Both the position numbers and the translations under genes were made by a program. 51,880 nt of DNA from IMG/VR virus record IMGVR_UViG_3300047564_000564, positions 1 through 51,880 of that record; one strand, written 5' to 3'. Source of the stretch: a virus. The notes beneath the pieces are model-generated. The model did not search any database, was not told where the DNA came from, and saw only the letters and a list, made by a program, of their open reading frames with translations. Shown piece after piece: positions 32,566-49,133 of the stretch; the first letter of the stretch is position 1, and the number at the start of each line of letters is the position of its first letter.

Positions 32566-34155
32566 ATGTCAAACTATACAAAGAAGGCCCTGGCCACAGC
32601 ATCTGCTCTGCTGATGGGTTCTTTTGCAACACCTGCATTTTCTCACACAAACTCTATTGGTTACGTCGGGGATGGTCAAGGTGGTATCACGTTCTGGTAT
32701 GGTTCTTGGCATGGAGGAACCAACTTCAATGAAGCCGAAATTAAACTAGAAGGTGCTAACGGGACCAGTTATACAACCACCATCACTCAGTTTAATTTAC
32801 TGCAGAACTCAACACCAGCTGGTTTAATTCCTGGAACCAACTACTTCACATCTGATGGAACTCAACTTGTTCCTTACGGAGATCCTAATGGTGGTGGAGA
32901 TTCATATACTTGGCAGGGTTTAACATTCTCTGGACTTTCTGCAGGTGATTATACTTTCACCTATATTCCTTTGGGTGACCCACAGTCATATCAACCAAAT
33001 GGCACTCCAACGATGGACTGGGTGCCTATGGACCAAGTTATCCGTAGTGCTACTGTTACTCTTTCTGCAACACTTCTTTCTGGTGATGCTAACCAGAATG
33101 GTATTCTTGATATCTATGAGTTTGGTACAGTTCAACAACCATCAACACCAACACTCACAAGTTCGGTAACCAATCCTTATTCTCAAACAGTTGTTACCAC
33201 CATCACCGAGACACCAAAAGAAGGTGATGGTGTACAGACAATGACCAGAGATGTTGATCTGGATGTAACCACAACCTATCAAACTGTAGATACTTATAGT
33301 GACGGTACAACAGTAACGGTTTACTCACAAACCAATTCTCAAAGTAGACACAGTAGCAAGAAGTATTCTGGTCGTATTGATCAGTTAGAAGTTCTTGATG
33401 GCATCAGTGATACATCTAATGATCTTCTGGATCATGAACCACTCACGAACCACAAGAAGAGATTTAGAATGTTTGAAAACAATACATTGACAAAATCTTA
33501 TAATGCTGATGGATATGATGGTTTCTCTACTATCTTTGGTGGTGGATTTGAATATGACCTGACAAAGGGATGGACTGCTGGAGCCCATTACAATACTCTC
33601 TACACAGAACTCAAAGGTGTAGATAGTCTTTCACATCTCAGCAGACAACACGTTGGTATCTTTAATAGTTTCCATGGTAAGAATGTTGCATTAGTAACAA
33701 ACGCTGGTGGTTCTAATGATACCTATGATTATGCAAGAACAGTTGAGTATCAATATGCCAACTGGGGTGAAACCAAAGGTCAACAGTGGTGGGTTCACAA
33801 TAGACTGTATCTCAATAACTCTGGCTCGATCAAACCATTCATCGGTCACACAGTTCAAAATGTAAAACGTGATGGATACACAGAGACTGGTACGGTTTCA
33901 TCTGCTAGAAGAGTTGCTGAAGTAAATAAAACCTCTCATGTTGGTGAGGCTGGTTTAACATTAGAAACCAGATTTGGTGGTAAGAAGAAAGATGTAATTG
34001 GTTTGAGTGTTGAAGGTTCCTACGGAACTGATAATTCTTATGGTGTTGTTGCTGCAGTTGATTACAAAGAAGTTATCTTCATTGAAGGATCACATATTGT
34101 TGCAGATGATGTTACAAACAACTCTGTTGCAGCCAAAGTGAAATTTAGGTTCTAA
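32566..34155 (+). CDS. Secreted outer-membrane protein with C-terminal beta-barrel (autotransporter-like)
   Basis: 529 residues. The N terminus is a classical signal peptide (lysines, then ATASALLMGSFATPAFS, cleavage near 26). Residues 27-170 are Gly/Thr-rich; GDANQNGILDIYEF (173-186) is an EF-hand or dockerin-like calcium loop; a Thr-rich stretch follows. From about residue 300 alternating strands (GGGFEYDLTKGWTAGAHY) end in AAKVKFRF with a terminal Phe, the mark of outer membrane barrels. This fits a passenger plus translocator made by the phage for the host surface. It has its own late promoter. Unusual in a phage. Confidence 0.7.
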   Translation: MSNYTKKALATASALLMGSFATPAFSHTNSIGYVGDGQGGITFWYGSWHGGTNFNEAEIKLEGANGTSYTTTITQFNLLQNSTPAGLIPGTNYFTSDGTQLVPYGDPNGGGDSYTWQGLTFSGLSAGDYTFTYIPLGDPQSYQPNGTPTMDWVPMDQVIRSATVTLSATLLSGDANQNGILDIYEFGTVQQPSTPTLTSSVTNPYSQTVVTTITETPKEGDGVQTMTRDVDLDVTTTYQTVDTYSDGTTVTVYSQTNSQSRHSSKKYSGRIDQLEVLDGISDTSNDLLDHEPLTNHKKRFRMFENNTLTKSYNADGYDGFSTIFGGGFEYDLTKGWTAGAHYNTLYTELKGVDSLSHLSRQHVGIFNSFHGKNVALVTNAGGSNDTYDYARTVEYQYANWGETKGQQWWVHNRLYLNNSGSIKPFIGHTVQNVKRDGYTETGTVSSARRVAEVNKTSHVGEAGLTLETRFGGKKKDVIGLSVEGSYGTDNSYGVVAAVDYKEVIFIEGSHIVADDVTNNSVAAKVKFRF

Positions 34156-36667: not shown

Positions 36668-36739
36668 ACCTCTGTCGCCTATCGGTTAAGGCCCACTGCT
36701 TATAACGGTGTGAACGGAGTTCAACTCTCTGCAGAGGTA
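36668..36739 (+). tRNA. tRNA-Ile (UAU)
   Basis: Acceptor ACCTCTG/CAGAGGT, D stem GCCT/AGGC, anticodon stem CACTG/CGGTG with loop CTTATAA (anticodon TAT), T arm CGGAG-TTCAACT-CTCTG. The anticodon UAU is uncommon in bacteria, where AUA is usually read by a modified CAU tRNA. Confidence 0.85.
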
Positions 36740-36775
36740 TTCCCCTTAGGGGGACCAAACCTACTATTCACTACA

Positions 36776-36994
36776 ATGTCTTTGTTGTCTAAGTTCAAAA
36801 AGAACATCCAAGTTCTTTCTCAGACCGTAGAGGGTACTGTTTCTTTAGACTTCCAAAATCCTAAACTGTACAAAAAAATCCTGCGATATTATGAGGATCA
36901 GGGAGTTGAGTTTTATGATGACCCCTATGACACTTACGAATATGTGATTGATCTTCTTAAAGAAGATCTTCAATCTGAAGGAGTGACCGTCTGA
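36776..36994 (+). CDS. Small hypothetical protein
   Basis: 72 residues from ATG 36776; the frame extends back into tRNA-Ile, so the internal start is required. MSLLSKFKKNIQVLSQTVEG, then KKILRYYEDQGVEFYDDPYD. Its stop overlaps the next start. A small CCCC-TTA-GGGG hairpin lies between the tRNA and this gene. No family recognised. Confidence 0.55.
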   Translation: MSLLSKFKKNIQVLSQTVEGTVSLDFQNPKLYKKILRYYEDQGVEFYDDPYDTYEYVIDLLKEDLQSEGVTV

Positions 36995-37218
36995 TGAACG
37001 TGGTTCTTGAACGTGGAGATGTCCGTTACACTTACAATGGTGTCTTGGAAAACGGTGTGAAAGATTATCGTATGCAATTGAAAGATTACTATACGAAACG
37101 TTGGAGTGATGTCTACTATTTTGATAATGAGATGCAGTGTACTATTGCAATTGAAGACGTAGATTATACAAACTGGCTTCTAGATCGACCCTGTTATATC
37201 AAGGATGATGAAGAGTAG
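36994..37218 (+). CDS. Small hypothetical protein
   Basis: 74 residues, beta-rich and tyrosine-rich (GDVRYTYNGVLENGVKDYRM, KRWSDVYYFDNEMQC), with an acidic end. Coupled to the previous gene by ATGA and followed by a terminator. No family recognised. Confidence 0.55.
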   Translation: MNVVLERGDVRYTYNGVLENGVKDYRMQLKDYYTKRWSDVYYFDNEMQCTIAIEDVDYTNWLLDRPCYIKDDEE

Positions 37219-37258
37219 TTTCTTATTTCTATTCAAAAAATAAGTGGCGAGCCTGCAG

Positions 37259-37284
37259 AAAGGGGTGGTTTATCCACCCCTTTT
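37259..37284 (+). terminator. Intrinsic terminator before the glycan operon
   Basis: AAAGGGGTGG (37259-37268), loop TTTAT, CCACCCCTTT (37274-37283), T. Confidence 0.85.
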
Positions 37285-37288
37285 GTTG

Positions 37289-37299
37289 TATAATAAATA
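37289..37299 (+). promoter_or_regulatory. Overlapping -10 box and late promoter for the glycan operon
   Basis: TATAAT (37289-37294) and ATAAATA (37293-37299) share bases. No good -35 box is visible, so the late element is the stronger call. This is the only promoter I see for the 14-gene operon. Confidence 0.55.
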
Positions 37300-37312: not shown

Positions 37313-38404
37313 ATGACACTGATGAAAACTGCATTAGTTCTTGGGGCTGGAGGGTTTATCGGCTCCTGGATGGTCAAACGACTAAAGGAAGAAGGATATT
37401 GGGTCCGTGGTGTAGACCTGAAACATCCTGAGTTCTCCCGTCACCAAGCCGATGAGTTTGTCATTGGTGACCTGAGGGATAAAAGTTTTGTCAACCGTGT
37501 GGTTGAGTACAAAGGAACACAGGGTAACTTCTTTCATCAAATTCCCTACAAGATGATCGAAGGATTTGATGAAGTGTATCAGTTTGCAGCTGATATGGGT
37601 GGGGCTGGTTTCGTGTTCTCTGGTGATTATGATGCAGAGATCATGCACAACTCTGCTACCATCAACCTGAACTTTCTTGATGCGATTGTCAAGACCAAAG
37701 GTATGGGGCGTAAGGTTCCTAAAATTTTCTATTCATCTTCTGCATGTGCATACCCATCACATGTACAAGAGGACACCAATAATCCTGGTTTGAGAGAAGA
37801 AGATGCGTATCCCGCAAATCCCGACAGTGAGTACGGATGGGAAAAGTTGTTCAGTGAACGTCTCTACCTTACTTACGGTCGCAATCATGGGCTTGATATT
37901 CGTGTTGCTAGGTATCACAATATCTATGGGCCCGAAGGTACTTGGGAAGGAGGACGTGAGAAAGCTCCCGCAGCTATGTGTCGAAAAGTTGCGTCCGTCA
38001 TGGGCGATGAAGGAGAAGTTGAATGTTGGGGTGATGGAGAACAAACCCGTTCCTTCCTGTACATAGATGATTGTATTGAAGCCACCCGTCGTTTAATGGA
38101 GAGTAACCACAAAGAAGTTATTAACATTGGATCTGAGGAGATGGTTACAATCAATCAACTCATCAACACTGCTGCAAAGGTTTCTGGTAAGACTGTAACC
38201 ATCAAACACGTTGATGGTCCTCTTGGAGTTCGTGGTCGTAATAGTCAAAACGATAAGATCCGTGAGGCGTTGAACTGGGATTACTCAATCAGTCTTGAAG
38301 AGGGTATCTCTAGAACCTACAAATGGGTAGAAGAACAAGTTCATAAAAGTCATCTCAATGAATGTTGGGAACATTATTATTATCCCGAAGAGAGTGAAGT
38401 ATGA
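37313..38404 (+). CDS. GDP-mannose 3,5-epimerase-like NAD-dependent epimerase
   Basis: 363 residues (ATG 37322, giving MKTALVLGAGGFIGS, is an equally good start). An extended short-chain dehydrogenase: GAGGFIGSW binds NAD, SSSACAYP and YGWEK carry the catalytic Ser/Cys and Tyr-Lys. AADMGGAGFVFS and NIYGPEGTWEGGREKAPAAMCRK are the blocks I associate with plant-type GDP-mannose 3,5-epimerase, which makes GDP-L-galactose or GDP-L-gulose. As first gene of the glycan operon it probably supplies the donor for the GT11 enzyme next to it. Confidence 0.82.
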   Translation: MTLMKTALVLGAGGFIGSWMVKRLKEEGYWVRGVDLKHPEFSRHQADEFVIGDLRDKSFVNRVVEYKGTQGNFFHQIPYKMIEGFDEVYQFAADMGGAGFVFSGDYDAEIMHNSATINLNFLDAIVKTKGMGRKVPKIFYSSSACAYPSHVQEDTNNPGLREEDAYPANPDSEYGWEKLFSERLYLTYGRNHGLDIRVARYHNIYGPEGTWEGGREKAPAAMCRKVASVMGDEGEVECWGDGEQTRSFLYIDDCIEATRRLMESNHKEVINIGSEEMVTINQLINTAAKVSGKTVTIKHVDGPLGVRGRNSQNDKIREALNWDYSISLEEGISRTYKWVEEQVHKSHLNECWEHYYYPEESEV

Positions 38405-39219
38405 TTGGTTTTAATGCATTAGGTAAACTGGGACAACTGGGAAACCAGATGTTTCAGTTGGCCTCTTTGAGGGGTATTGGTTCACACAAAGGATACAACT
38501 TTTGTTTTCCAATTCACAATGAAGTCGTTGTAGATCATCTGGGAAATAAACTGAGAGTAGATGTTCATAACGTCTTTACTCTGCAGAATGTAAGTCCACT
38601 TAACATTCAAACGATTGATGTTGGTAGACCTACGGTTTCTGAAGGTACTTTTCATTTCAATGAAACTCTTTTCAATGAATGCCCTGACTGGGTAGATCTG
38701 CAAGGTTTCTTTCAAAGTGAAAAGTATTTTGCTCACGATAAAGGAATGGTTCGTGAGATGTTCACATTCCGTCCAGAAATTATTGATCCTGCCCGTGCAA
38801 TGATCAATGGGTTAAACAAAGCTCCTGTTGCACTTCATATTCGTCGTGGTGATTTCCTTCGTAACTCTGGGAACCATCATAATCTTGAACTTATGTGGTA
38901 TGCAAAAGCCCTAGATAAGTTTGATTTGAGGGGTCGTCAGGTTGTAATCTTTAGTGATGATCCTGAATGGTGCAAGAAACAAGAACTCTTTGAAGATGAT
39001 GATACATTCTTGATTAGTGAAGGTAATTCACACTATACTGATCTTGCAATGATGTCTTTGTGTACTGGGCATATCATCGCAAACTCTACCTTCTCATGGT
39101 GGGGTGCATGGTTGGCTGATAGTAAAGAAGTTATCGCACCTAAGACGTGGTTTGGTCCAGACAACGCACATCTTGATACAAAAGATCTTTATCCTGAACA
39201 TTGGGAGGTACTTGAGTGA
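38401..39219 (+). CDS. Glycosyltransferase family 11 (alpha-1,2-fucosyltransferase-like)
   Basis: 272 residues. GNQMFQLASLRGIGSHKG at the front, VALHIRRGDFLRN (the HxRRGD donor-binding motif), VVIFSDDPEWC and NSTFSWWGAWLAD are the classical GT11 motifs. The family moves L-fucose from GDP-fucose to galactose; with a GDP-mannose 3,5-epimerase beside it, the related sugar GDP-L-galactose is a possible donor here. No signal peptide or membrane segment, so it acts in the cytoplasm on a glycan intermediate. Confidence 0.88.
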   Translation: MIGFNALGKLGQLGNQMFQLASLRGIGSHKGYNFCFPIHNEVVVDHLGNKLRVDVHNVFTLQNVSPLNIQTIDVGRPTVSEGTFHFNETLFNECPDWVDLQGFFQSEKYFAHDKGMVREMFTFRPEIIDPARAMINGLNKAPVALHIRRGDFLRNSGNHHNLELMWYAKALDKFDLRGRQVVIFSDDPEWCKKQELFEDDDTFLISEGNSHYTDLAMMSLCTGHIIANSTFSWWGAWLADSKEVIAPKTWFGPDNAHLDTKDLYPEHWEVLE

Positions 39220-39944
39220 GAGCCGCAAAAGTTGCTGTAGTATTCATTGGGACTGGTAAGTATCTCAACTTCCTTCCATCTTGGTACGAACGTTGCGAAG
39301 AAAATTTTCTCCCCAATATGGAGAAACAATACTTTGTTTTCACTGATGGTAATGTTCCAGAAGTACCAGACAATGCCACTGTCTATCCTGTAGAACATCT
39401 AGATTGGCCATATATCACTCTCTATCGATTTAATATTATCGGTAAAGCCCGTGAAGAAATTAACAAGTATGACTGGTTAGTTTTTCTTGACGCAGACATG
39501 GCCGTGGTTGACAAGGTAACTCCAGAAGAGTTCTTTGATCCTCTCAAACCTTTCTTTGGTGTTCATCACCCATGTCACTTCCTCAAGTTTCCACCACATA
39601 ATCAACCACCTGGATCTTTTGAAACCAGTCCACTGTCAACTGCAAAGGTTCCTGATGATTATGACTTCTCTATCTATTGGCAGGGATGTCTCTGGGGTGG
39701 TCGATGCCCTGATGTAATTGAGATGATGGATGAACTCCATGATCGTGTTATGAAAGACGAGAAGAACAATGTGATTGCAAAGTGGCATGATGAAAGTCAT
39801 CTTAATGCCTTCTATGCACAGAACAGAGAACTTGTTCATACTCTTGGTCCAGAGTATGCGTTCCCAGAAGTCTTTGCTGATGCATGTGATTTCCAACCCA
39901 AAATGGTTCACCTAGCCAAAGACAACAGTAAGTATCATGTATGA
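39216..39944 (+). CDS. Glycosyltransferase family 6 (ABO/alpha-Gal type)
   Basis: 242 residues from GTG 39216. VVFIGTGKYLNFLPSWYERC, the metal motif FLDADMAV (Asp92-x-Asp94), FSIYWQGCLWGG and KWHDESHLNAF match GT6, the family of the histo-blood group A/B and alpha-1,3-galactosyl transferases. It keeps the metal-binding DxD, whereas many bacterial members have NxN. A GT6 in cyanophage P-SSM2 is known to me, so the family is not new for cyanophages. It probably adds Gal or GalNAc next to the sugar placed by GT11. Confidence 0.85.
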   Translation: MRAAKVAVVFIGTGKYLNFLPSWYERCEENFLPNMEKQYFVFTDGNVPEVPDNATVYPVEHLDWPYITLYRFNIIGKAREEINKYDWLVFLDADMAVVDKVTPEEFFDPLKPFFGVHHPCHFLKFPPHNQPPGSFETSPLSTAKVPDDYDFSIYWQGCLWGGRCPDVIEMMDELHDRVMKDEKNNVIAKWHDESHLNAFYAQNRELVHTLGPEYAFPEVFADACDFQPKMVHLAKDNSKYHV

Positions 39945-40744
39945 ACCTGAAGATAGGATTGTCTGGTTGTACTCTTGAAAAGATTGATAACACCATCAGG
40001 AAATATTCTTCCAGTGAAAGTTACAATCAGAGACTTCTAAAACAATCAGAAAAACAAGAATACTTCTCAAGATTTATCTTCACCAGACTATCTACTCCTA
40101 GGGTTATCTCTAGGGGTGATAGTTATTTTGATATGGAGTATATCCAAGCTTCATCATTCAATACATTTCTCAACTCTGCAGATGTAAATCAATTGGATTT
40201 TATTTGTGAAGGACTTTATGAATATTTTGAGTTCCTTATCGAACATTCGAGAACTCAAAACATCAAGACCAAGGTGATGAATAAACTGGACAGTCTAGAA
40301 CAAACACCATTCATTGACTATCTCAAGTCACTAGATGTTGATTATGATGTCCCGAAAAGTTTTTGTCACGGGGACTTGACATTCACTAATATTCTTTTTC
40401 ATAAAAAGAAATTATATTTTATAGACTTTCTGGATAGTTTTGTTGATACCTTTTACGTCGATCTTTGTAAGTTGAAACAAGATCTTTATTATCACTGGTC
40501 AATTAGACTTCATGATGGTATGAACGTAAGACTATATCAGTCAACTAATTACATCTGGAAAAATATAGAAGAAAGATACAAGAAGTATATCAACACTCTT
40601 GCGTTCGATGTTCTTGATGTTGTAAACTTACTTAGAATACAACCATATCTTAAGAACCAAGAGGATAAAACAATCCTTTCTTATCTGATACAAAATACCA
40701 AGTTATATGAAAACTTTAATTGTTCCTATGGCGGGACGGTCTAG
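39941..40744 (+). CDS. Aminoglycoside/choline-kinase-like phosphotransferase
   Basis: 267 residues. The C-terminal lobe has SFCHGDLTFTNILFHKK with HxDxxxxN and then LYFIDFLDSFVDTFYVDL, the metal-binding DFG-like part of the APH/choline kinase fold. The N-terminal lobe is weaker. Its neighbour is a nucleotidyltransferase-HAD fusion overlapping by 38 bases, so the kinase may phosphorylate a sugar or alcohol that is then activated as a nucleotide conjugate, as in phosphocholine-type pathways. The substrate is unknown. Confidence 0.7.
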   Translation: MNLKIGLSGCTLEKIDNTIRKYSSSESYNQRLLKQSEKQEYFSRFIFTRLSTPRVISRGDSYFDMEYIQASSFNTFLNSADVNQLDFICEGLYEYFEFLIEHSRTQNIKTKVMNKLDSLEQTPFIDYLKSLDVDYDVPKSFCHGDLTFTNILFHKKKLYFIDFLDSFVDTFYVDLCKLKQDLYYHWSIRLHDGMNVRLYQSTNYIWKNIEERYKKYINTLAFDVLDVVNLLRIQPYLKNQEDKTILSYLIQNTKLYENFNCSYGGTV

Positions 40745-41762
40745 TAGGTTCCCCAACAGCCGTCCTAAGTGGATGTTAACTCATCCAAAGAACAACAGAC
40801 TGATGGTCAGTGAGGCTATCTCTGGATTAAATCTAGACTTCTTTGATGAGATCCTGTTTATCTTTCTTGCAGAACATCAATCTGAGTATATGTTCTTTGA
40901 AGGTTTTATGGAGGAGATGAAAGAACTTGGTCTTAGTGATAAATGCAGACCCACCTTTCTTGCCAAACCAACAGGATCTCAATCCGAAACTGTTTACCAG
41001 GCTATCAAGAAAGAAAACATAGAAGGATTTATCTTCATCAAAGATAGTGATGGTTACTATGAATGTGAACTGACCACTACTGATAATCAGGTTGCATTCT
41101 TTGATCTCAATGATATGGATAATATCAATGCACGATCAAAGAGTTACATTACAATCGATGATCTTGGTGTTGTAACTAATATTGTAGAGAAGAAAGTGAT
41201 TAGTTCTACTTTCTCTTCTGGTGGTTATGGATTTAATTCTGCAAAACAGTTCTGTGATACTTTTGAAAGACTTAAAGACATGCCTGGAGAATGTTACATC
41301 AGTCATGTCATCTTTGAAATGATGTTAGATGGCCATTCTTTTAATGCAACCAAGACATCTAACTTCAAAGACTGGGGAACAAAAGATGTTTGGATGGAGT
41401 ACAAGAAGACTTATAAGACATTGTTCTGTGATATTGATGGAACATTGATTACCAATTCATCAATTCATTTTCCTCCTTACGTTGGAGAAGGAGAACCAAT
41501 CCAAGAGAACATTGATTACTTAAACTATCTTTACGGTGAAGGTAGAACTCACATTGTTCTTACTACAAGTCGCCCAGAAAAGACTAGACAAATTACCATC
41601 GATGAACTAGAATTGAAAGGAGTGAAATATCACCAACTTGTTATGGGGTTGCCTCACAGTCAACGTATTGTAATCAATGACTTTGCAGCTTCTAATCCAT
41701 ATCCTGCATGTGGTGCAATCAATTTACCAAGAAACAATAACAATCTAAGGGAGTTCTTATGA
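40707..41762 (+). CDS. Fusion: sugar nucleotidyltransferase (N) + HAD phosphatase (C)
   Basis: 351 residues. Residues 1-235 are a GT-A-type nucleotidyltransferase: TLIVPMAGRSSRFPNSRPKW, with FIKDSDGYYEC as the metal-binding strand. Residues 238-351 are a HAD phosphatase: FCDIDGTLITN (Asp242, Asp244), VLTTSRPEK and RIVINDFAAS. The pair could dephosphorylate a bisphosphate intermediate and then load NTP, as in heptose or related pathways. The gene at 44191 has the same two domains in reverse order. It overlaps the kinase gene by 38 bases. Confidence 0.8.
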   Translation: MKTLIVPMAGRSSRFPNSRPKWMLTHPKNNRLMVSEAISGLNLDFFDEILFIFLAEHQSEYMFFEGFMEEMKELGLSDKCRPTFLAKPTGSQSETVYQAIKKENIEGFIFIKDSDGYYECELTTTDNQVAFFDLNDMDNINARSKSYITIDDLGVVTNIVEKKVISSTFSSGGYGFNSAKQFCDTFERLKDMPGECYISHVIFEMMLDGHSFNATKTSNFKDWGTKDVWMEYKKTYKTLFCDIDGTLITNSSIHFPPYVGEGEPIQENIDYLNYLYGEGRTHIVLTTSRPEKTRQITIDELELKGVKYHQLVMGLPHSQRIVINDFAASNPYPACGAINLPRNNNNLREFL

Positions 41763-42739
41763 AAATTCTAGTCACTGGTGCCGCTGGTAACATTGGCTGC
41801 GGTCTTTGTTCCCACCTTGTTGAACAAGGTCATGAAGTTGTTGGTGTTGATAATCTTCGTAATGGACGTTTAGAAAATATTGACGGGTTCAAAGGTAAGA
41901 TCATCATCGGCGATGTTGATGATGAGAACTTTGTCAACACTACGTTGATGGAAGCCTGGGATGTAATCATTCACCTGGCTGCAATTTCATCTCTCCCCGA
42001 TTGTGAAACAAATAAGGCTGAATGTCTTCGTATTAATGTTGTCGCAGTCTCCAATATGTTGGAACTTGCCCGACACACTGGTGCATATCTTATTCATGCT
42101 TCAACCAGTGCAGTTTATGAGAACACCAACTCATTGAACTTCCATGAAGACTTGGATATCAATCCAACTCTTTACTATGCCCTCTCTAAGAAGATGGCTG
42201 AAGATCTGATCAACGCATATACTGAGAACTATGGTATTAAGGTTGGTGTTCTTCGTTTCTTCAATGTGTTTGGTCCTGATGGTGACCACACCCGACCCAA
42301 TCCTCCTCTGGTTAACTTCCTTGTTCGGGAGTTTAAGAAAGAAACTAGTCCCGTTCTAAGTGGTGATGGATCTCAAGTCCGTGATTTTATTCATGTCGAT
42401 GACATTCGTAGAATGATTGAGGTGTGCATCGAAAAACAACCTAGTGATGTTTTCAACGTATGCACTGGTATTACCTGTAGTGTTAACCAGATTGGTGAAT
42501 GGGTTCGTGAAGCTCTAGAGACTGATCTGCCTCTTGCACACAAGGACGCCGCAGAACTCTGGGATCGTTATCCCAGTCTCTTTGAGGGTTCTTATCCCCT
42601 CAATAAAGAGATCGTCGCCAAGGAGACTACACGATACTCTAAGGGTGTCTATGACAAGGCTAAAACTGAACTGGGTTGGGAACCTAACCTAGATATTGAA
42701 GGTCTAGTCAAAAAAGTTGCGAAGGAGATTGTGATTTGA
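41759..42739 (+). CDS. NAD-dependent sugar epimerase/dehydratase
   Basis: 326 residues of the extended SDR type: GAAGNIGCGL (NAD binding), HLAAISSLPDC, ASTSAVYE and YYALSKK (catalytic Tyr-x3-Lys), RFFNVFGP, then VRDFIHVDDI. Closest in pattern to UDP-glucose 4-epimerase-like enzymes, but the exact substrate cannot be told. It is ATGA-coupled on one side and joined to the next gene by a TTG start overlapping its stop. Confidence 0.85.
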   Translation: MKILVTGAAGNIGCGLCSHLVEQGHEVVGVDNLRNGRLENIDGFKGKIIIGDVDDENFVNTTLMEAWDVIIHLAAISSLPDCETNKAECLRINVVAVSNMLELARHTGAYLIHASTSAVYENTNSLNFHEDLDINPTLYYALSKKMAEDLINAYTENYGIKVGVLRFFNVFGPDGDHTRPNPPLVNFLVREFKKETSPVLSGDGSQVRDFIHVDDIRRMIEVCIEKQPSDVFNVCTGITCSVNQIGEWVREALETDLPLAHKDAAELWDRYPSLFEGSYPLNKEIVAKETTRYSKGVYDKAKTELGWEPNLDIEGLVKKVAKEIVI

Positions 42740-43500
42740 GAGTTGCAGTATTTGTATTTGGACAACCAAGGTTTCTAGATAATCCACACGCATTTGCATC
42801 ACAAAAGAAATTCATATTCGATAAGTATGACACTGATGTATTTGCACACATTTGGTGGTCTGAAGAAGAGAAGAGTTATTCATACTCTAAGTGGGAAGGT
42901 GGTGGTACATTCCACCCCTTCTTGAATGAAGATAAAATGCAGGTTGATAAATCTGCAATCGATACGATTAGGGAAAGATATAATCCAGTTAAACTTGAGA
43001 CCCAACCCTCAGAGACCTTCTCCAATGAAGACCTATATAATGCTATAACCGAAAGGTTTCAAGCAGAGGGTAGATTTACCAGAAACAATCTGAGTAACTT
43101 TCTATCTCAGGCTTATTCGATTGAGAAAACGTCAGAACTTTACGAGCAATATCTTTCTGAAGGTGGAGAACGCCATGACTTTATAGTCTTGGTAAGAACA
43201 GACCTTAACATTCAACACTTCCCAGATTTTAACGAACTCAATAAGAGTAAGTATTATCTTTCAAATCATCACAATGGGTTCCCAGACCTTGCGTTTATTA
43301 TGGGAACAAAGTTCTTGAAGACAAATAAGATCTATTCCTATATGATGAGTGACAAGTGTGTTCAGGATGTTCCTAAAATGCCAGGTGCATACGGAGAATG
43401 TTTTAAACTCTTCACATATCAGAAATATTTTTCAAACTCTGATCTTGATCCAATCCACATGCCATGTTTTGTTGTAAGAAACAATGAAGACCCAAACTAA
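42736..43500 (+). CDS. GQPR-family protein, copy 1 (unassigned, glycosyltransferase-like)
   Basis: 254 residues from TTG 42736, with AAGGAG 8 bases upstream. Blocks shared with two other proteins of this operon: VFGQPRFLDNP at the front, DTDVFAHIWWSEE, SQAYSIEKTSEL and DFIVLVRTDLN, then LSNHHNGFPDLAFIMG. The order strand, DVF.H.W, helix, R-T-D resembles a nucleotide-sugar-binding fold with an acidic metal site, so a glycosyltransferase is plausible. I do not know a characterised member. Confidence 0.6.
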   Translation: MRVAVFVFGQPRFLDNPHAFASQKKFIFDKYDTDVFAHIWWSEEEKSYSYSKWEGGGTFHPFLNEDKMQVDKSAIDTIRERYNPVKLETQPSETFSNEDLYNAITERFQAEGRFTRNNLSNFLSQAYSIEKTSELYEQYLSEGGERHDFIVLVRTDLNIQHFPDFNELNKSKYYLSNHHNGFPDLAFIMGTKFLKTNKIYSYMMSDKCVQDVPKMPGAYGECFKLFTYQKYFSNSDLDPIHMPCFVVRNNEDPN

Positions 43501-44194
43501 AAGACTTGCATTAATTTACTCTGGACAACCTAGACACCTGCGAGAGTGTCATCAAAATCATAGGTTGAACTTTTATGAGGCCAATTCAGATTGGGAAGTG
43601 GATGTGTTTGCCCACGTTTGGTATGACAAGAGTTGGGTTGGTGCATATTTCTGGGATCAATACAAAGATCGTGGTAAATGGGATGCAGATCTAATTCCTT
43701 TCATGGAAGAAAAATGGCAACCAAAAGCCCTAGAGTTTGAAGAACCAAAAGAGTTTGTATCTGAATGGAAACCAGATCCTAGATTTCCTCATCCAGTGAA
43801 CAATATCATCTCCATGTTCTACAGTCTTGAGAAGGCCAATGACCTCAAGAAAAAGTATGAAGAAGAAAATAACTTTAAGTATGATTGTGTGGTAAGATTG
43901 AGAACGGATGAATACTTCTATGAAGACATTGGACCTCTTGATGACTATGACCTCAACACTGTTAATGTATTCGATGAGTATGCTCATCTGGATTATGGGA
44001 TTAATGATCACTTTGCATTTGGTAACTCCGAACTGATGGATAAATACCTCAGTGTTTGTAGTAACCTTGGGACAATCATTGAGGAAGGTGCTGCAATCAA
44101 CCCAGAAACTTTGATTGGTTGGAACGCACAGAACCATCATAAATTACCAATTACAAAAAATAAATTTGGTTATCGCCTTTGGAGGGACATGTGA
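43484..44194 (+). CDS. GQPR-family protein, copy 2
   Basis: 236 residues, overlapping copy 1 by 17 bases. It has YSGQPRHLRECH, VDVFAHVWYDKSW, SMFYSLEKANDL and CVVRLRTDEYF, then DHFAFGN where copy 1 has DLAFIMG. The C-terminal part differs from copies 1 and 3, as expected if acceptors differ. Same reservations on function as copy 1. Confidence 0.6.
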   Translation: MKTQTKRLALIYSGQPRHLRECHQNHRLNFYEANSDWEVDVFAHVWYDKSWVGAYFWDQYKDRGKWDADLIPFMEEKWQPKALEFEEPKEFVSEWKPDPRFPHPVNNIISMFYSLEKANDLKKKYEEENNFKYDCVVRLRTDEYFYEDIGPLDDYDLNTVNVFDEYAHLDYGINDHFAFGNSELMDKYLSVCSNLGTIIEEGAAINPETLIGWNAQNHHKLPITKNKFGYRLWRDM

Positions 44195-45564
44195 CAAAAC
44201 TTGTTATTTTTGATCTTGACGGTGTACTGATTGATAGTAAAGATTATCATTACGAAGCTTTGAACCAGGCTCTTGGTTCAGAGTATGCAATCTCAAGAGA
44301 AGAACATGTAAGTATCTACGATGGTCTTCCTACCAAGGCCAAATTAGAACTTCTCACTAAGAATAAGGGTCTACCTGTAGACCAGTACGATAAGATCTGG
44401 AAAGATAAACAAGAAGCCACTCTCAAGATCTTTAATGACTGTGTTGCAAAAGACTATCAGTTGATGGGATACTTCCAACAACTTGTAGATGCAGGATATA
44501 AGATTGCAGTTGCATCCAATTCTATTAGGAATACTGTTAAAATCATTTTATTGAGATTAGGAGTATTAGAGTTTGTTGATATGTACGTCTCTAATGAAGA
44601 CGTAGTTCGTAACAAACCATTTCCTGCAATGTATTGGAAGTGCATGATTGCACTTGGGGCTCTTCCAAATGACACCGTTATTATTGAAGATAGTCATATT
44701 GGTCGTCAAGGTGCTCTGGATAGTAAGTGCCACCTTGTTCCTGTGGATGACCGTAAAGATTTGGATCAATCTAAAATTGATCGTATCAAAAAAATCCTCA
44801 ACGGAACCAAACAAAAAGTTGCATGGGAGAGTAAGACGATGAATGTATTGATCCCTATGGCTGGTCGGGGTAGTAGATTTGCATCTCAAGGATATACTTT
44901 CCCCAAACCTTTGATTGAAGTCAAGGGTAAACCAATGATCCAAGTGGTTGTTGAGAACTTGAACATCAAGGCCAACTACACCTTCATCGTTCAGAAAGAA
45001 CACTACGAACAATACAATCTTAACTATCTGTTGCCTCTGATTGCCCCAGGGTGTAATATTGTACAGGTAGATGGTATCACTGAAGGTGCCGCTTGTACCA
45101 CTCTTCTTGCAAAGGAGTTTATCAATAACGATGAACCCTTGATCATGGCTAACTCTGATCAGTTTGTGGAATGGGATAGTAATGAAACTCTTTATGCCTT
45201 CCAAAATGATGGTATCGATGGAGGTATCATTACGTTCCCTGCAACTCACCCTAAGTGGTCTTATGCCAAACTTGGTGAAGATGGTTATGTGTCTGAGGTT
45301 GCTGAGAAGAAACCTATCTCCGAACATGCAACAGTAGGTATATACTACTGGAAGAAAGGTTCTGACTACGTTAAGTACGCAGAACAAATGATTGACAAGA
45401 ACGTTCGTGTAAACAATGAGTTCTATGTCTGCCCTGTGTTCAATGAAGCTATTGAAGATGGTAAGAAGATCCGTATCAAGGAGATTGATAAGGATGGTAT
45501 GTGGGGTATCGGAACCCCAGAAGATCTCAACTATTTCTTAGAACATTATAAGGGTGAAGTTTGA
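44191..45564 (+). CDS. Fusion: HAD phosphatase (N) + sugar nucleotidyltransferase (C)
   Basis: 457 residues from GTG 44191 (SD GGAGG upstream). Residues 1-205 are a beta-phosphoglucomutase-type HAD: FDLDGVLIDS (Asp8, Asp10), VASNSIRNTV, IIEDSHIGRQGA. Residues 217-457 are a nucleotidyltransferase: NVLIPMAGRGSRFASQGYTF, PKPLIEVKGKPMI, IMANSDQFVEW and a final GMWGIGTPEDL. The domain order is the reverse of the 40707 gene. An internal ATG at 44839 could give the transferase alone. The likely role is activating a sugar phosphate. Confidence 0.82.
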   Translation: MTKLVIFDLDGVLIDSKDYHYEALNQALGSEYAISREEHVSIYDGLPTKAKLELLTKNKGLPVDQYDKIWKDKQEATLKIFNDCVAKDYQLMGYFQQLVDAGYKIAVASNSIRNTVKIILLRLGVLEFVDMYVSNEDVVRNKPFPAMYWKCMIALGALPNDTVIIEDSHIGRQGALDSKCHLVPVDDRKDLDQSKIDRIKKILNGTKQKVAWESKTMNVLIPMAGRGSRFASQGYTFPKPLIEVKGKPMIQVVVENLNIKANYTFIVQKEHYEQYNLNYLLPLIAPGCNIVQVDGITEGAACTTLLAKEFINNDEPLIMANSDQFVEWDSNETLYAFQNDGIDGGIITFPATHPKWSYAKLGEDGYVSEVAEKKPISEHATVGIYYWKKGSDYVKYAEQMIDKNVRVNNEFYVCPVFNEAIEDGKKIRIKEIDKDGMWGIGTPEDLNYFLEHYKGEV

Positions 45565-46346
45565 TGAAAGTCGCTCTTCTTTTTCATGGTCAACCACGAT
45601 ATCTAAAGAACCCTTTTCCACTCAAGTCTCATACTAGAGAGATCCTCAACAAGTATGAGACTGATGTTTATGTTCATACTTGGTTTGATGAAGAACAAAC
45701 TGAGTATGAATTTTCTACATGGAGTAGGATTTCTTCCTGTCCGATTGAACCAAACTCTCCTCAATTGATCGAGGAGTATTACAGTCCTAAACTAATGAAG
45801 GTTGAAAAACCTCAGAAGTTTGCCTTTTCTGAACACTCTAGAAAACTGATCAACGGTAGAGGGTTTCGTCCAGAAGACGGATGGCATGACCAGAACTATA
45901 ACAACATTCTCTCTTCACTTTATAGTATTGAGAGTGTTTGCAATCTGGTTGAACCTTACAAGAATGATTATGATTTCATTATTCTTTCTAGACTTGACAA
46001 CCTTGTCTATCGTCTACCGAATTTAAATGAACTGAATAATGATCGGTTCTATCTTTCAGATCACCATCCCAGGTTCCCAGATCTTCTGTTCTTCTTTGGT
46101 CCAAATTATCTGGACACAATGAAGGTCTATTCTAATGTTGATAGTCTAGTCGAAAAACATTGTCATGAACTGTGGGGTCCTTCTCTGAATGAACCACTGA
46201 AGATGTTCAACTATCTTCATGTTCATGGAGGAACAAATGTCGTTCCAACAAGACTTCCTGTTCGTGTTGTAAGAGACAATGAAGGTAGAGGTGATATTGA
46301 TAAACTATTTGAATATCAATTGACCTTGGAGGACATGTTCGGATGA
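45564..46346 (+). CDS. GQPR-family protein, copy 3
   Basis: 260 residues from ATG 45564, sharing one base with the upstream stop. FHGQPRYLKNP, ETDVYVHTWFDEE, SSLYSIESVCNL, DFIILSRLDNLV, LSDHHPRFPDLLFFFG: the same blocks as copy 1 and closest to it, including the HH..FPDL segment. Two copies flank the HAD-nucleotidyltransferase gene on one side and this one follows it, which ties the family to the sugar pathway. Confidence 0.6.
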   Translation: MKVALLFHGQPRYLKNPFPLKSHTREILNKYETDVYVHTWFDEEQTEYEFSTWSRISSCPIEPNSPQLIEEYYSPKLMKVEKPQKFAFSEHSRKLINGRGFRPEDGWHDQNYNNILSSLYSIESVCNLVEPYKNDYDFIILSRLDNLVYRLPNLNELNNDRFYLSDHHPRFPDLLFFFGPNYLDTMKVYSNVDSLVEKHCHELWGPSLNEPLKMFNYLHVHGGTNVVPTRLPVRVVRDNEGRGDIDKLFEYQLTLEDMFG

Positions 46347-46801
46347 AACTGATTGCACATCGGGCTAATCTAAATGGTCCAGATCTATTAACAGAAAACT
46401 CTCCACACCAGATCGTTCATTGTATCGAACAGGGATATGATGTAGAGATTGATGTTCGTTATGATCCTAAGACTGGTTGGTTATGGTTGGGTCACGATGA
46501 ACCACAATACTCTGTGACCTGGTGGTGGTTGGCTGGTAAGTCTGATCATCTTTGGATCCACTGTAAAGATCTTACAACTCTTCATGAGTTTTCTTCAAAT
46601 ACAAGTGGTTACAATTACTTCTGGCATCAGGATGATGATTACACCCTAACTAGTAAACAACACATTTGGGCCTACCCTGGTAAAACCTATACAAAGAATA
46701 CTGTAATCGTTATGCCAGAGTGGAACAATATGGATTGGGATAAGTTAAAAGTAACTAATTGTTATGGAATTTGTTCTGACTACATTTCTAAACTAAAATG
46801 A
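46343..46801 (+). CDS. Minimal glycerophosphodiester phosphodiesterase (GDPD)-like protein
   Basis: 152 residues. LIAHRANLNGPDLLTENSPH, VEIDVRYD and WLWLGHDEPQY match the catalytic front of GDPD enzymes (His-Arg, Glu-x-Asp, His), but the protein is about 100 residues shorter than a full TIM barrel. It may be a reduced barrel or a phosphodiesterase-like domain adapted to a glycan phosphodiester. ATGA overlaps on both sides. Confidence 0.65.
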   Translation: MKLIAHRANLNGPDLLTENSPHQIVHCIEQGYDVEIDVRYDPKTGWLWLGHDEPQYSVTWWWLAGKSDHLWIHCKDLTTLHEFSSNTSGYNYFWHQDDDYTLTSKQHIWAYPGKTYTKNTVIVMPEWNNMDWDKLKVTNCYGICSDYISKLK

Positions 46802-46941
46802 TTGTAACCTTATTAGAAGACGGTGAGGATCTTGTTTTTCCTTTCCCAGATGAACTTATCGATGAACTTGGTTGGAAAGATGGAGACACTCTTGAGTGGA
46901 TCGACAATAAAGATGGTACACTGACCTTAAGAAAGATATGA
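46798..46941 (+). CDS. AbrB/MazE-like small protein
   Basis: 47 residues: FPFPDELIDELGWKDGDTLE followed by a strand ending in GTLTLRKI. This matches the swapped-hairpin AbrB/SpoVT pattern (P..l...LGwk.GD.l). Such domains bind DNA or a toxin partner, but no toxin gene is next to it. ATGA overlaps on both sides place it firmly inside the glycan operon. Confidence 0.65.
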   Translation: MIVTLLEDGEDLVFPFPDELIDELGWKDGDTLEWIDNKDGTLTLRKI

Positions 46942-47891
46942 GAATTACACTGATTGGTCCTGGTATTATGCCTATCCCACCTACGGGATGGGGTGCTGTA
47001 GAAATCTTGGTTTGGGACACCAAGCTCGCACTGGAAAAACTGGGCCATCAGGTTCAGATTATCAATACCAAAGATGCGAGACAAATCATCAATGATATTA
47101 ATTCGTTTCGCCCAGACTTTGTGCATGTACATTATGATGAGTTTATTCCCATCGTTCCCTACATTCAATATCCATGTGCAATCACAAGTCACTTTGGGTA
47201 TCTTGAACGTCCACAAATGTTCAACGGCTACATCAATGTAGCTAATGAGTTTGTTCGTGTTAAACCTAATATCTTCTGTTTGTCTAGAGGTATTCAGAAG
47301 ATCTACAACGTGATGTTTGATATTCCCAGGGATAACACATATGTTACTCCCAATGGTGTGAATATTGATGAATTTAATTACTCCGATAATCCTGAGTATC
47401 CCGATCGTAGTATCTACCTTGCAAAGATTGACTACCGCAAGAGACAACATCTCTTCCAGTCTATTGATAGTCTTTGGTATGCTGGTAACCTTGCAGATGA
47501 TAGGTTCAATACTTCAAAGAATTATCTTGGTGAGTGGTCTAAGGATAGACTGTACAACGAACTCACAGAGTATGGTAACTTAGTTCTTCTCTCTGATGGT
47601 GAGGCTCATCCACTTGTTTGCATGGAAGCTTTGGCTGCAGGACTTGGTGTGGTAGTATGTGAATGGGGTAAGGCTAATTTGGATACTGAAAAGGAATTCA
47701 TTACAGTCATCCCAGAAGACAGGATCAATGACATTGAATATGTTGAACAGGAGATCGTCAAGAATAGAGAGTACTCTATCAAACACCGTGATGAGATCCG
47801 TGAGTATTCGAAGAAGTTTGATTGGGTCGAAGTTTTGAAGAAGTATTATCTTCCTAGTATTGAAAAGGTGATTGCAAAACATGGATCGTAA
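46938..47891 (+). CDS. Glycosyltransferase family 4-type
   Basis: 317 residues of GT-B type. The front GPGIMPIPPTGWGAVEIL is typical of GT4, PNGVNIDEF marks the domain junction, and LLSDGEAHPLVCMEALAAGL carries the E-x7-E donor site. It is shorter than most members (350-400), with a compact second domain. It transfers a nucleotide-activated sugar to a glycan or lipid acceptor in the cytoplasm. Confidence 0.82.
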   Translation: MRITLIGPGIMPIPPTGWGAVEILVWDTKLALEKLGHQVQIINTKDARQIINDINSFRPDFVHVHYDEFIPIVPYIQYPCAITSHFGYLERPQMFNGYINVANEFVRVKPNIFCLSRGIQKIYNVMFDIPRDNTYVTPNGVNIDEFNYSDNPEYPDRSIYLAKIDYRKRQHLFQSIDSLWYAGNLADDRFNTSKNYLGEWSKDRLYNELTEYGNLVLLSDGEAHPLVCMEALAAGLGVVVCEWGKANLDTEKEFITVIPEDRINDIEYVEQEIVKNREYSIKHRDEIREYSKKFDWVEVLKKYYLPSIEKVIAKHGS

Positions 47892-48645
47892 TAAGGCTGC
47901 ATACAAACTTAAGAACTTTGGCCCTCTGTATATCATCAATCTGGATGGACAACCAGATCGATGGAAATGGATGCAAGACCAACTGGATTATTGGCAAGTT
48001 GAAAACTACGAACGTATCTCTGCCTTTGATGGTAGAGTAAGTGACTTATCAGAAGTTATTTCTGGTAGGTATCCTAATGCAGTTTCATCTGGTGAGATTG
48101 GTTGTGTAACGTCTCACCTGAAAGCCATTAAACATTGGTACGAAACTACAGATACAGACTATGGTATCTTCATGGAAGATGACTGTGACTTCTGTTCTGT
48201 TAAACACTGGCCATTCTCCTGGAGAGAGTTTATGGCTAGAGTTCCATATGATTGGGACTGTCTTCAAATTGCAGTGATCAACCCTAGGAAACTAGTTGCA
48301 AACATTCACCCTAGGTATGTGGATGATTATTCCACTGCAGCCTTCGTGATTAACCGTAGGTACGCAGAGAAACTGATGCACTTCCATTGTCGTGATGAAA
48401 AATTCAAACTTGACAATGGTGTCCGTCCTCGTGCCGTCGCCGATGATCTTATCTACAATGCAGGAAAAACATACGCCATACCCCTATTCCTTTATAAACT
48501 GGAACTTGGTTCAACTATCCATCCAGAACATATTGATGTTTTCCATAAGTCTAGCCGTGAAGGACTAGATCACTGGTGGACCAATCAATCTGCGGACATG
48601 CCCATTGATAAGTTCTTTGAATACGATACCCACGAACTGAACTAG
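47881..48645 (+). CDS. Glycosyltransferase family 25 (LPS-type)
   Basis: 254 residues from ATG 47881. LYIINLDGQPDRWKWMQDQL, ISAFDGRVSD, GEIGCVTSHLKAIKHW and FMEDDCDF are the GT25 blocks known from LPS beta-galactosyltransferases, with the EDD metal motif. AAFVINRRYAEKLM and RAVADDLIY complete the domain. It is the last gene of the operon and points to a lipopolysaccharide-like or other envelope glycan as the target. Confidence 0.85.
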   Translation: MDRNKAAYKLKNFGPLYIINLDGQPDRWKWMQDQLDYWQVENYERISAFDGRVSDLSEVISGRYPNAVSSGEIGCVTSHLKAIKHWYETTDTDYGIFMEDDCDFCSVKHWPFSWREFMARVPYDWDCLQIAVINPRKLVANIHPRYVDDYSTAAFVINRRYAEKLMHFHCRDEKFKLDNGVRPRAVADDLIYNAGKTYAIPLFLYKLELGSTIHPEHIDVFHKSSREGLDHWWTNQSADMPIDKFFEYDTHELN

Positions 48646-48755: not shown

Positions 48756-49133
48756 ATGATTAAATCTGTTATTGCAACTGCCGCTGTCGCCCCTTTCCTT
48801 GCCACCGCTGCGTTCGCTGGTCCTTATGTTGAGAGCAAGACCACTTCTGCTCTTTCTGACGGCACCTACAAAGGCGCTCAAACCGAACTTCGTGTTGGTT
48901 ACGAAGAGAAGGTCGCTCCTACCGTGACCGTCTTTGGCGAGATCGGTCCTGGTTATGAGTGGACCAAAGGCACCACTACTACCACTGGCGAAACTGTTGC
49001 CGTTGGTGAAGTTGGTGTGAAGGTTAAGGCAACCGATAAGGTTAGTGTGAATGCCAAAGTGACTGGTGAGTATGGTAATACCAGTGAAGTCTTTGACATG
49101 GGTGGTGAACTGAAGGTTCGTTACGCCTTCTGA
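48756..49133 (+). CDS. Small outer-membrane-type protein with signal peptide
   Basis: 125 residues. A signal peptide (KSVIATAAVAPFLATAAFA, cleavage near 21) is followed by a mature part of alternating strands (TELRVGYEEKVAPTVTVFGE, KVSVNAKVTGEYG) ending in VRYAF. The final Phe and the alternation are typical of 8-strand outer membrane barrels, though about 100 residues is very short for one. It is GC-richer at third positions than its neighbours, suggesting strong expression. It has its own promoter and a structured leader. Confidence 0.7.
   Translation: MIKSVIATAAVAPFLATAAFAGPYVESKTTSALSDGTYKGAQTELRVGYEEKVAPTVTVFGEIGPGYEWTKGTTTTTGETVAVGEVGVKVKATDKVSVNAKVTGEYGNTSEVFDMGGELKVRYAF

Follow-up and report, generated by a model that had tools for sequence, protein, structure and literature searches.

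A cyanophage operon predicted to supply GDP-L-galactose and to build a blood-group-like glycan

Introduction

Clusters of lipopolysaccharide (LPS) genes have been described in the cyanophages P-SSM2, S-SSM7 and S-SM2, in accounts that assign them no product and leave open whether they are "stuffer" DNA (PMC3037559, PMC2984593). We analyzed a fourteen-gene operon at positions 37313-48645 (+ strand) of a 51,880-base IMG/VR virus record of a T4-like cyanophage of marine cyanobacteria (IMGVR_UViG_3300047564_000564; this whole stretch is the window below), which occupies the same neighborhood, near tRNA and hli genes, and has the same broad content. S-SM2 carries, as the window does, genes for GDP-mannose 3,5-epimerase (GME), glycosyltransferases of families GT11 and GT25, and GQPR-like proteins, but it has no GT6 gene beside GT11. 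A related set, comprising GME, GMD, GDP-fucose synthase (Fcl), an alpha-1,2-fucosyltransferase and a wcaG RNA, has been reported from a single cyanophage, S-SCSM1, with the genes listed singly and with neither an L-galactose/GT6 branch nor a comparison of donor classes proposed (PMC9602691). The first-pass annotation of the window knew of no described pathway with this content, a claim cut back by the phage LPS clusters (PMC3037559) and by S-SCSM1 with its GME and GT11. The exchange of GME, GMD and ColD is not named in the two earlier accounts of the clusters, and our literature search found no earlier description of donor-cassette exchange feeding a blood-group-like GT11-GT6 pair.

When the H antigen and then the A and B antigens are synthesized, a GT11 enzyme acts first and a GT6 enzyme follows. 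Seroconverting phages with gtr clusters change the O-antigen of their host with genes of their own, which can shut out other phages. The gtr systems depend on a flippase and bactoprenol-glucose, whereas the operon studied here brings its own nucleotide-sugar synthesis and the flippase family went unmatched in 11 related phage records. The blood-group enzymes WbgN, FUT2, GTA/GTB and BoGT6a belong to the same two families as the phage pair, and characterized GT11 enzymes (E. coli WbgN, human FUT2) are donor-promiscuous, accepting GDP-L-galactose, GDP-L-fucose and GDP-L-colitose (PMC11987014); the phage system differs in that its donor is predicted to be GDP-L-galactose and its enzymes are virus-encoded. 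The wcaG motif (RF01761), a cyanophage RNA found in the leaders of exopolysaccharide genes, has been judged likely to be a riboswitch, with links to exopolysaccharide or high-light genes (PMC2864571), and a degenerate remnant of it lies ahead of the operon.

Results

On balance, the operon probably makes an L-galactose donor and attaches a short, branched, ABO-like glycan to an existing acceptor, for which host LPS is the likeliest candidate. The three genes at its head are central to this reading:

37313-38404, + strand: GME, predicted maker of GDP-L-galactose; start possibly the ATG at 37322
38401-39219, + strand: GT11, predicted alpha-1,2-L-galactosyltransferase (PF01531, 90 bits against a cut-off of 23.9; HxRRGD at residue 146)
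39216-39944, + strand: GT6, predicted alpha-1,3-Gal/GalNAc transferase of the ABO type (PF03414, 90 bits)

Judged by its sequence, the first gene is a true GME, for which we predict conversion of GDP-mannose to GDP-L-galactose. Its top match among solved structures is the Arabidopsis enzyme AtGME (2c59), at 280 bits against 86 for the next family, and it carries S143, C145, Y174, K178, N203, K217, R246 and R309. These include the residues that separate GME from GDP-fucose synthase (PMC8787198), namely a Cys acid (C145), a Lys base (K217), an Arg acidifier (R309) and YxxxK (Y174/K178); in Fcl relatives the base position holds His and the acidifier position Lys (mostly) or Arg. The annotations found in some records, UDP-glucose 4-epimerase and GDP-fucose synthase, are ruled out by these residues.

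Among annotated genomes, the locus has its nearest relatives in S-8S53, S-8S55, S-8S56 and S-CAM9 (Kanaloavirus), S-PRM1 and DSL-LC03. GME occupies the donor position in the window, S-CAM9, S-PRM1 and Bellamy; in DSL-LC03, which is otherwise syntenic, GMD and Fcl replace it, and the GMD-Fcl pair is also present in DSL-LC02. A third cassette, seen in ACG-2014f and further IMG/VR loci, consists of GMD, an Fcl-like enzyme and a DegT protein. We rejected perosamine synthase for the ACG-2014f DegT protein, since its top PDB matches are to ColD and the Lys that binds pyridoxal phosphate is replaced by His, as in E. coli ColD. The three cassettes would thus each lead from GDP-mannose to a different L-galacto sugar: L-galactose, L-fucose or L-colitose. 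Among 84 non-redundant GT11-GT6 loci with 3 kb of upstream sequence, 41 carry GME, 27 carry Fcl, none carries both and 16 carry neither (Fisher test, p 4e-11, uncorrected for relatedness); in one of the 16 (L113), GME is cut by the contig edge.

If the donor cassette feeds GT11, then GT11 should follow the donor more closely than the other genes do. With three donor classes mapped over 91 loci, the GT11 tree requires 4 changes (shuffled mean about 42; minimum 2) and the GT6 tree 11. With a two-class donor label on matched loci, GT11 requires 2 changes against 8 for GT6, 7 for GT25 and 6 for GT4, and, in the comparison with a downstream HAD-nucleotidyltransferase fusion, 1 against 4. The GT11 tree therefore follows the donor cassette; the GT6 tree, over the 91 loci, does not. 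The protein itself has both the Glyco_transf_11 profile match and the HxRRxD motif of its family, and a search of solved structures with it gave no usable match.

For GT6, the best solved matches are human ABO transferases, followed by BoGT6a. The protein combines the Glyco_transf_6 profile match with a metal site (DAD, of the DXD form, at residue 92) and a catalytic Glu in the WHDES region (WHDESHLN at 190); it scored 172 of the 250 bits needed for the NCBIfam Gltr_6 subfamily. It shares DXD with vertebrate GT6 enzymes, and most bacterial members have NXN (PMC3961637); that work also mentions two GT6 genes from cyanophages. GT11 and GT6 are adjacent in about 100 non-redundant loci. By analogy with the blood-group order, the phage GT11 and GT6 may act in sequence on one galactose, for which their adjacency is suggestive only.

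Downstream of this trio lie ten further large genes and one small open reading frame (ORF):

39941-40744, + strand: APH/choline-kinase-like kinase (PF01636, 30.2 bits)
40707-41762, + strand: nucleotidyltransferase-HAD fusion (PHROG 3980; profile matches to nucleotidyltransferase 4evw and to HAD/Pnkp)
41759-42739, + strand: SDR nucleotide-sugar epimerase/dehydratase, GalE/heptose-epimerase-like (PF01370, 168 bits)
42736-43500, + strand: GQPR protein 1, predicted GT-A glycosyltransferase (PHROG 13607; same family as the modeled GQPR protein 2)
43484-44194, + strand: GQPR protein 2, predicted GT-A glycosyltransferase (DUF7796, 29.4 bits, cut-off 27)
44179-45564, + strand: HAD (beta-phosphoglucomutase-like)-sugar nucleotidyltransferase fusion (PF13419, PF00483; matches to bPGM and 4evw)
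45561-46346, + strand: GQPR protein 3, predicted GT-A glycosyltransferase (same GQPR family)
46343-46801, + strand: putative short GDPD-like phosphodiesterase (HR, EN, ExD, HD and K invariant in 30 relatives)
46798-46941, + strand: 47-amino-acid ORF, the fourteenth gene (4-nucleotide overlaps on both sides)
46938-47891, + strand: GT4 glycosyltransferase (PF13439, 32.3 bits, cut-off 28.5)
47872-48645, + strand: GT25 glycosyltransferase that may make the galactose acceptor (PF01755, 35.2 bits; EDD motif)

In the proposed scheme, the epimerase would convert host GDP-D-mannose to GDP-L-galactose, and GT11 would transfer L-galactose, probably in alpha-1,2 linkage, to the terminal galactose of a stem built with the help of GT25 and GT4. 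GT6 would then add Gal or GalNAc alpha-1,3 beside the L-galactose, just as the A and B transferases extend the H antigen. The kinase, the nucleotidyltransferase-HAD fusion and the second epimerase may make a further activated sugar for use by the GQPR transferases, and the HAD-nucleotidyltransferase fusion may make another.

The HGDLT..N and IDFLD motifs of the kinase are invariant across 19 relatives, and the fusion's own motifs (nucleotidyltransferase-HAD) across 28; in many bacterial loci, a kinase gene stands directly upstream of the fusion. The SDR epimerase reached no NCBIfam equivalog cut-off and is without the Cys and Lys of GME. Bacterial homologs of the kinase/fusion/SDR block occur in varied polysaccharide loci that point to no single sugar. 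In Ferrimonas aestuarii (L264, 7126-9074) the kinase/fusion pair sits beside heptosyltransferase-like, GmhA-like and HldE-like genes, a setting that may name its sugar. The AlphaFold2 model of GQPR protein 2 (pLDDT 94.5) has a GT-A fold and its best Foldseek matches are all GT6 structures (E 2.7e-6, TM about 0.5), so the GQPR proteins are likely GT-A transferases. The GDPD-like protein is also modeled confidently (pLDDT 92.5), with GDPDs as its top Foldseek matches, yet it has 152 amino acids, against about 230-250 for GDPD, and no Pfam match.

Much of the first-pass annotation is borne out by these assignments. It had described a unit combining precursor synthesis with transfer, which the gene families support: Pfam matches recover the epimerase, GT11, GT6, APH kinase, HAD-nucleotidyltransferase fusion, second SDR epimerase, GT4 and GT25; the second fusion is backed by PHROG 3980 and the 4evw profile match; and the three GQPR proteins form a single family. 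Its GDPD-like protein holds at the level of fold only. Its fourteen genes overlapping almost without gaps are found as stated once the 47-amino-acid ORF is counted, which closes an apparent gap before GT4: the 13 large genes and this ORF leave no intergenic gap, and all 13 junctions overlap, nine by 4 nucleotides and the remaining four by 38, 17, 16 and 20. An annotated ORF of 49 amino acids occupies the same position in S-8S53, S-8S55 and S-CAM9. The small protein is possibly of an AbrB/SpoVT-like hairpin type, coupled on both sides. The annotation had also seen no polymerase, flippase or ligase gene and so took the product to be a short chain on an existing acceptor; in agreement, neither Wzy_C (PF04932) nor Polysacc_synt/Wzx (PF01943) was matched in the 11 related phage records, the window genome itself being incomplete.

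All 13 large genes recur in the same order, at 85-97% identity, in a second IMG/VR record (L018; 3300005805_000202), so the operon is no assembly artifact. Across cultured cyanophages and IMG/VR contigs, GT11-GT6-GT4-GT25 form a conserved frame (with 9 kb of downstream sequence available, 33 of 38 operons have GT25 and 34 have GT4), and the variable parts are cassettes, chiefly the GDP-sugar donor cassette. In five cultured phages, GME-GT11-GT6, the HAD-nucleotidyltransferase fusion, the GQPR genes, GDPD, GT4 and GT25 are collinear and the kinase/fusion/SDR block is missing. The block forms a cassette of its own: it follows GT6 in many IMG/VR loci, is present in the single-cell virus AG-345-E15, and has its kinase/fusion pair represented in many bacterial loci; the window and L018 hold both middle cassettes. 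We therefore reject a patchwork of genes that do not co-occur, the outcome named beforehand as fatal to a single unit; it fails for the frame and for L018, although the middle cassettes are indeed swapped. Other phage operons add methyltransferase and Sulfotransfer_2 proteins (L010, 16869-18986; L005, 17241-17945), and the glycan may therefore be methylated or sulfated there.

Three elements precede the first gene:

37172-37258, + strand: degenerate wcaG cis-regulatory RNA (RF01761), 5' hairpin lost (34.1 bits, E 2e-4)
37259-37283, + strand: hairpin with T-rich tail directly upstream of the promoter, possibly a terminator/attenuator (sequence AAAGGGGTGGTTTATCCACCCCTTT)
37289-37294, + strand: promoter-like TATAAT, overlapping the late-type AATAAATA at 37292-37299

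The first-pass annotation had placed the operon behind a single late promoter at 37293. A motif at this site, AATAAATA, does agree with NATAAATA, the consensus of cyanophage late promoters (PMC2984593), and close relatives retain it at -20/-21; motifs of the form WATAAATA are no commoner in the window than chance predicts (7 found, 3.9+-2.3 expected). Around the hairpin, many relatives outside Kanaloavirus have TTGACA-like and TATAAT hexamers, a sigma-70-type promoter, of which the window's group has lost the -35 element and has the late-type motif. Because the motif overlaps TATAAT and many other relatives have a sigma-70-type promoter there, lateness is only plausible. The hairpin, recognized by eye and unflagged by a scan, is kept in most close relatives.

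The wcaG match in the window falls below the gathering score of 42, and we treat it as a remnant, not a member of RF01761. Of 11 phage records that contain such operons, five show a single wcaG match, which exceeds the cut-off in four; the matches lie immediately upstream of the first donor gene or as much as about 0.6 kb away from it; 29 of 50 IMG/VR records have a match above the cut-off, and the RNA went undetected in S-CAM9 and S-PRM1. In related phages (L359-L393), the RNA, followed by a terminator-like hairpin, heads glycan operons of all three donor classes, and in many related operons the copy is intact. A link between wcaG and GDP-mannose is conjecture.

Beside the operon, in a unit of its own, is a candidate surface protein:

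48756-49133, + strand: cyanophage outer-membrane beta-barrel protein (PF24653, 95.6 bits; signal-peptide-like start)

A 529-amino-acid protein at 32566-34155, upstream of the tRNA genes, is a second candidate, with a signal-peptide-like start and an outer-membrane-like C-terminus. Closer to the operon, tRNA-Ile (36668-36739) overlaps the start of an ORF at 36710-36994 (GTG), which therefore probably starts later.

Discussion

We favor the host surface over the virion as the target. The enzymes could instead decorate tail-fiber or capsid proteins, as in phages known to glycosylate their virions, and the possibly late-type promoter would suit such a role; but the genes around the operon are auxiliary (tRNA, hli, psbA) and not structural, GT25 is named as an LPS family in Pfam, the Ferrimonas kinase/fusion pair neighbors heptose and heptosyltransferase genes, and an outer-membrane beta-barrel gene is adjacent. 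None of these points is decisive, and we regard virion glycosylation as unlikely without dismissing it. Far less probable is that the cluster is passive cargo that fills larger heads or rides without function, as raised for cyanophage LPS clusters on the ground that large clusters occur in large genomes (PMC3037559). S-CAM9 and S-PRM1 carry the cluster in genomes of 175 and 144 kb, every reading frame of the operon is open with active-site residues kept, and donor genes and GT11 match each other, as those of neutral cargo would not.

Several observations weigh against an L-galactose branch on host LPS. In most loci GT11 adjoins the donor genes, and part of the tracking can thus come from linkage; where the two lie apart (24 loci), GT11 requires 2 changes (shuffled mean 8.3) and GT6 also 2, and since the contrast with GT6 vanishes there we do not claim the tracking as proof against linkage. 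No donor gene is seen at about 16 of the 84 GT11-GT6 loci, some of which must therefore rely on a host donor, and in some contigs the ColD cassette and GME occur together (L317, L345, L346, L348, L349, L352, L353). These contigs carry one or two GT11 genes, possibly giving two L-sugars in one phage. GME also gives GDP-L-gulose as a by-product (PMC8787198). The loci without a nearby donor gene and the promiscuity of GT11 (PMC11987014) would suit an arrangement in which GT11 draws on host GDP-fucose and a different transferase, for example a GQPR protein, takes the GDP-L-galactose or GDP-L-gulose. We think this doubtful, as GME and Fcl never share a GT11-GT6 locus (0 of 84), the GT11 tree follows the cassette, and some GME loci have no GQPR genes. 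Finally, the published account of host LPS from WH8102 and CC9311 describes chiefly 4-linked glucose and names neither galactose nor fucose (PMC4515613); the acceptor may therefore have to be phage-made, and the predicted sugars would be novel on a surface of this kind.

If host LPS is indeed the target, the altered surface receptor may act against other phages or grazers. A bolder and decidedly tentative extension is antigen switching, in which a conserved GT11-GT6 core with interchangeable GDP-L-galactose, GDP-L-fucose and GDP-L-colitose cassettes would let phages of the same host coat it with different ABO-like epitopes and exclude each other; in many members, wcaG and the hairpin may sense GDP-mannose or another shared precursor and gate its drain. 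Our findings tie the wcaG RNA, whose ligand is unnamed in the literature we consulted, to operons with donor genes that consume GDP-mannose. A 2010 comparison left cyanophage LPS clusters as either functional or stuffer; this locus offers a specific predicted product, L-galactose added by GT11 and capped by GT6, and the three exchanged donor routes predict three distinguishable sugars on cells infected by the three phage types.

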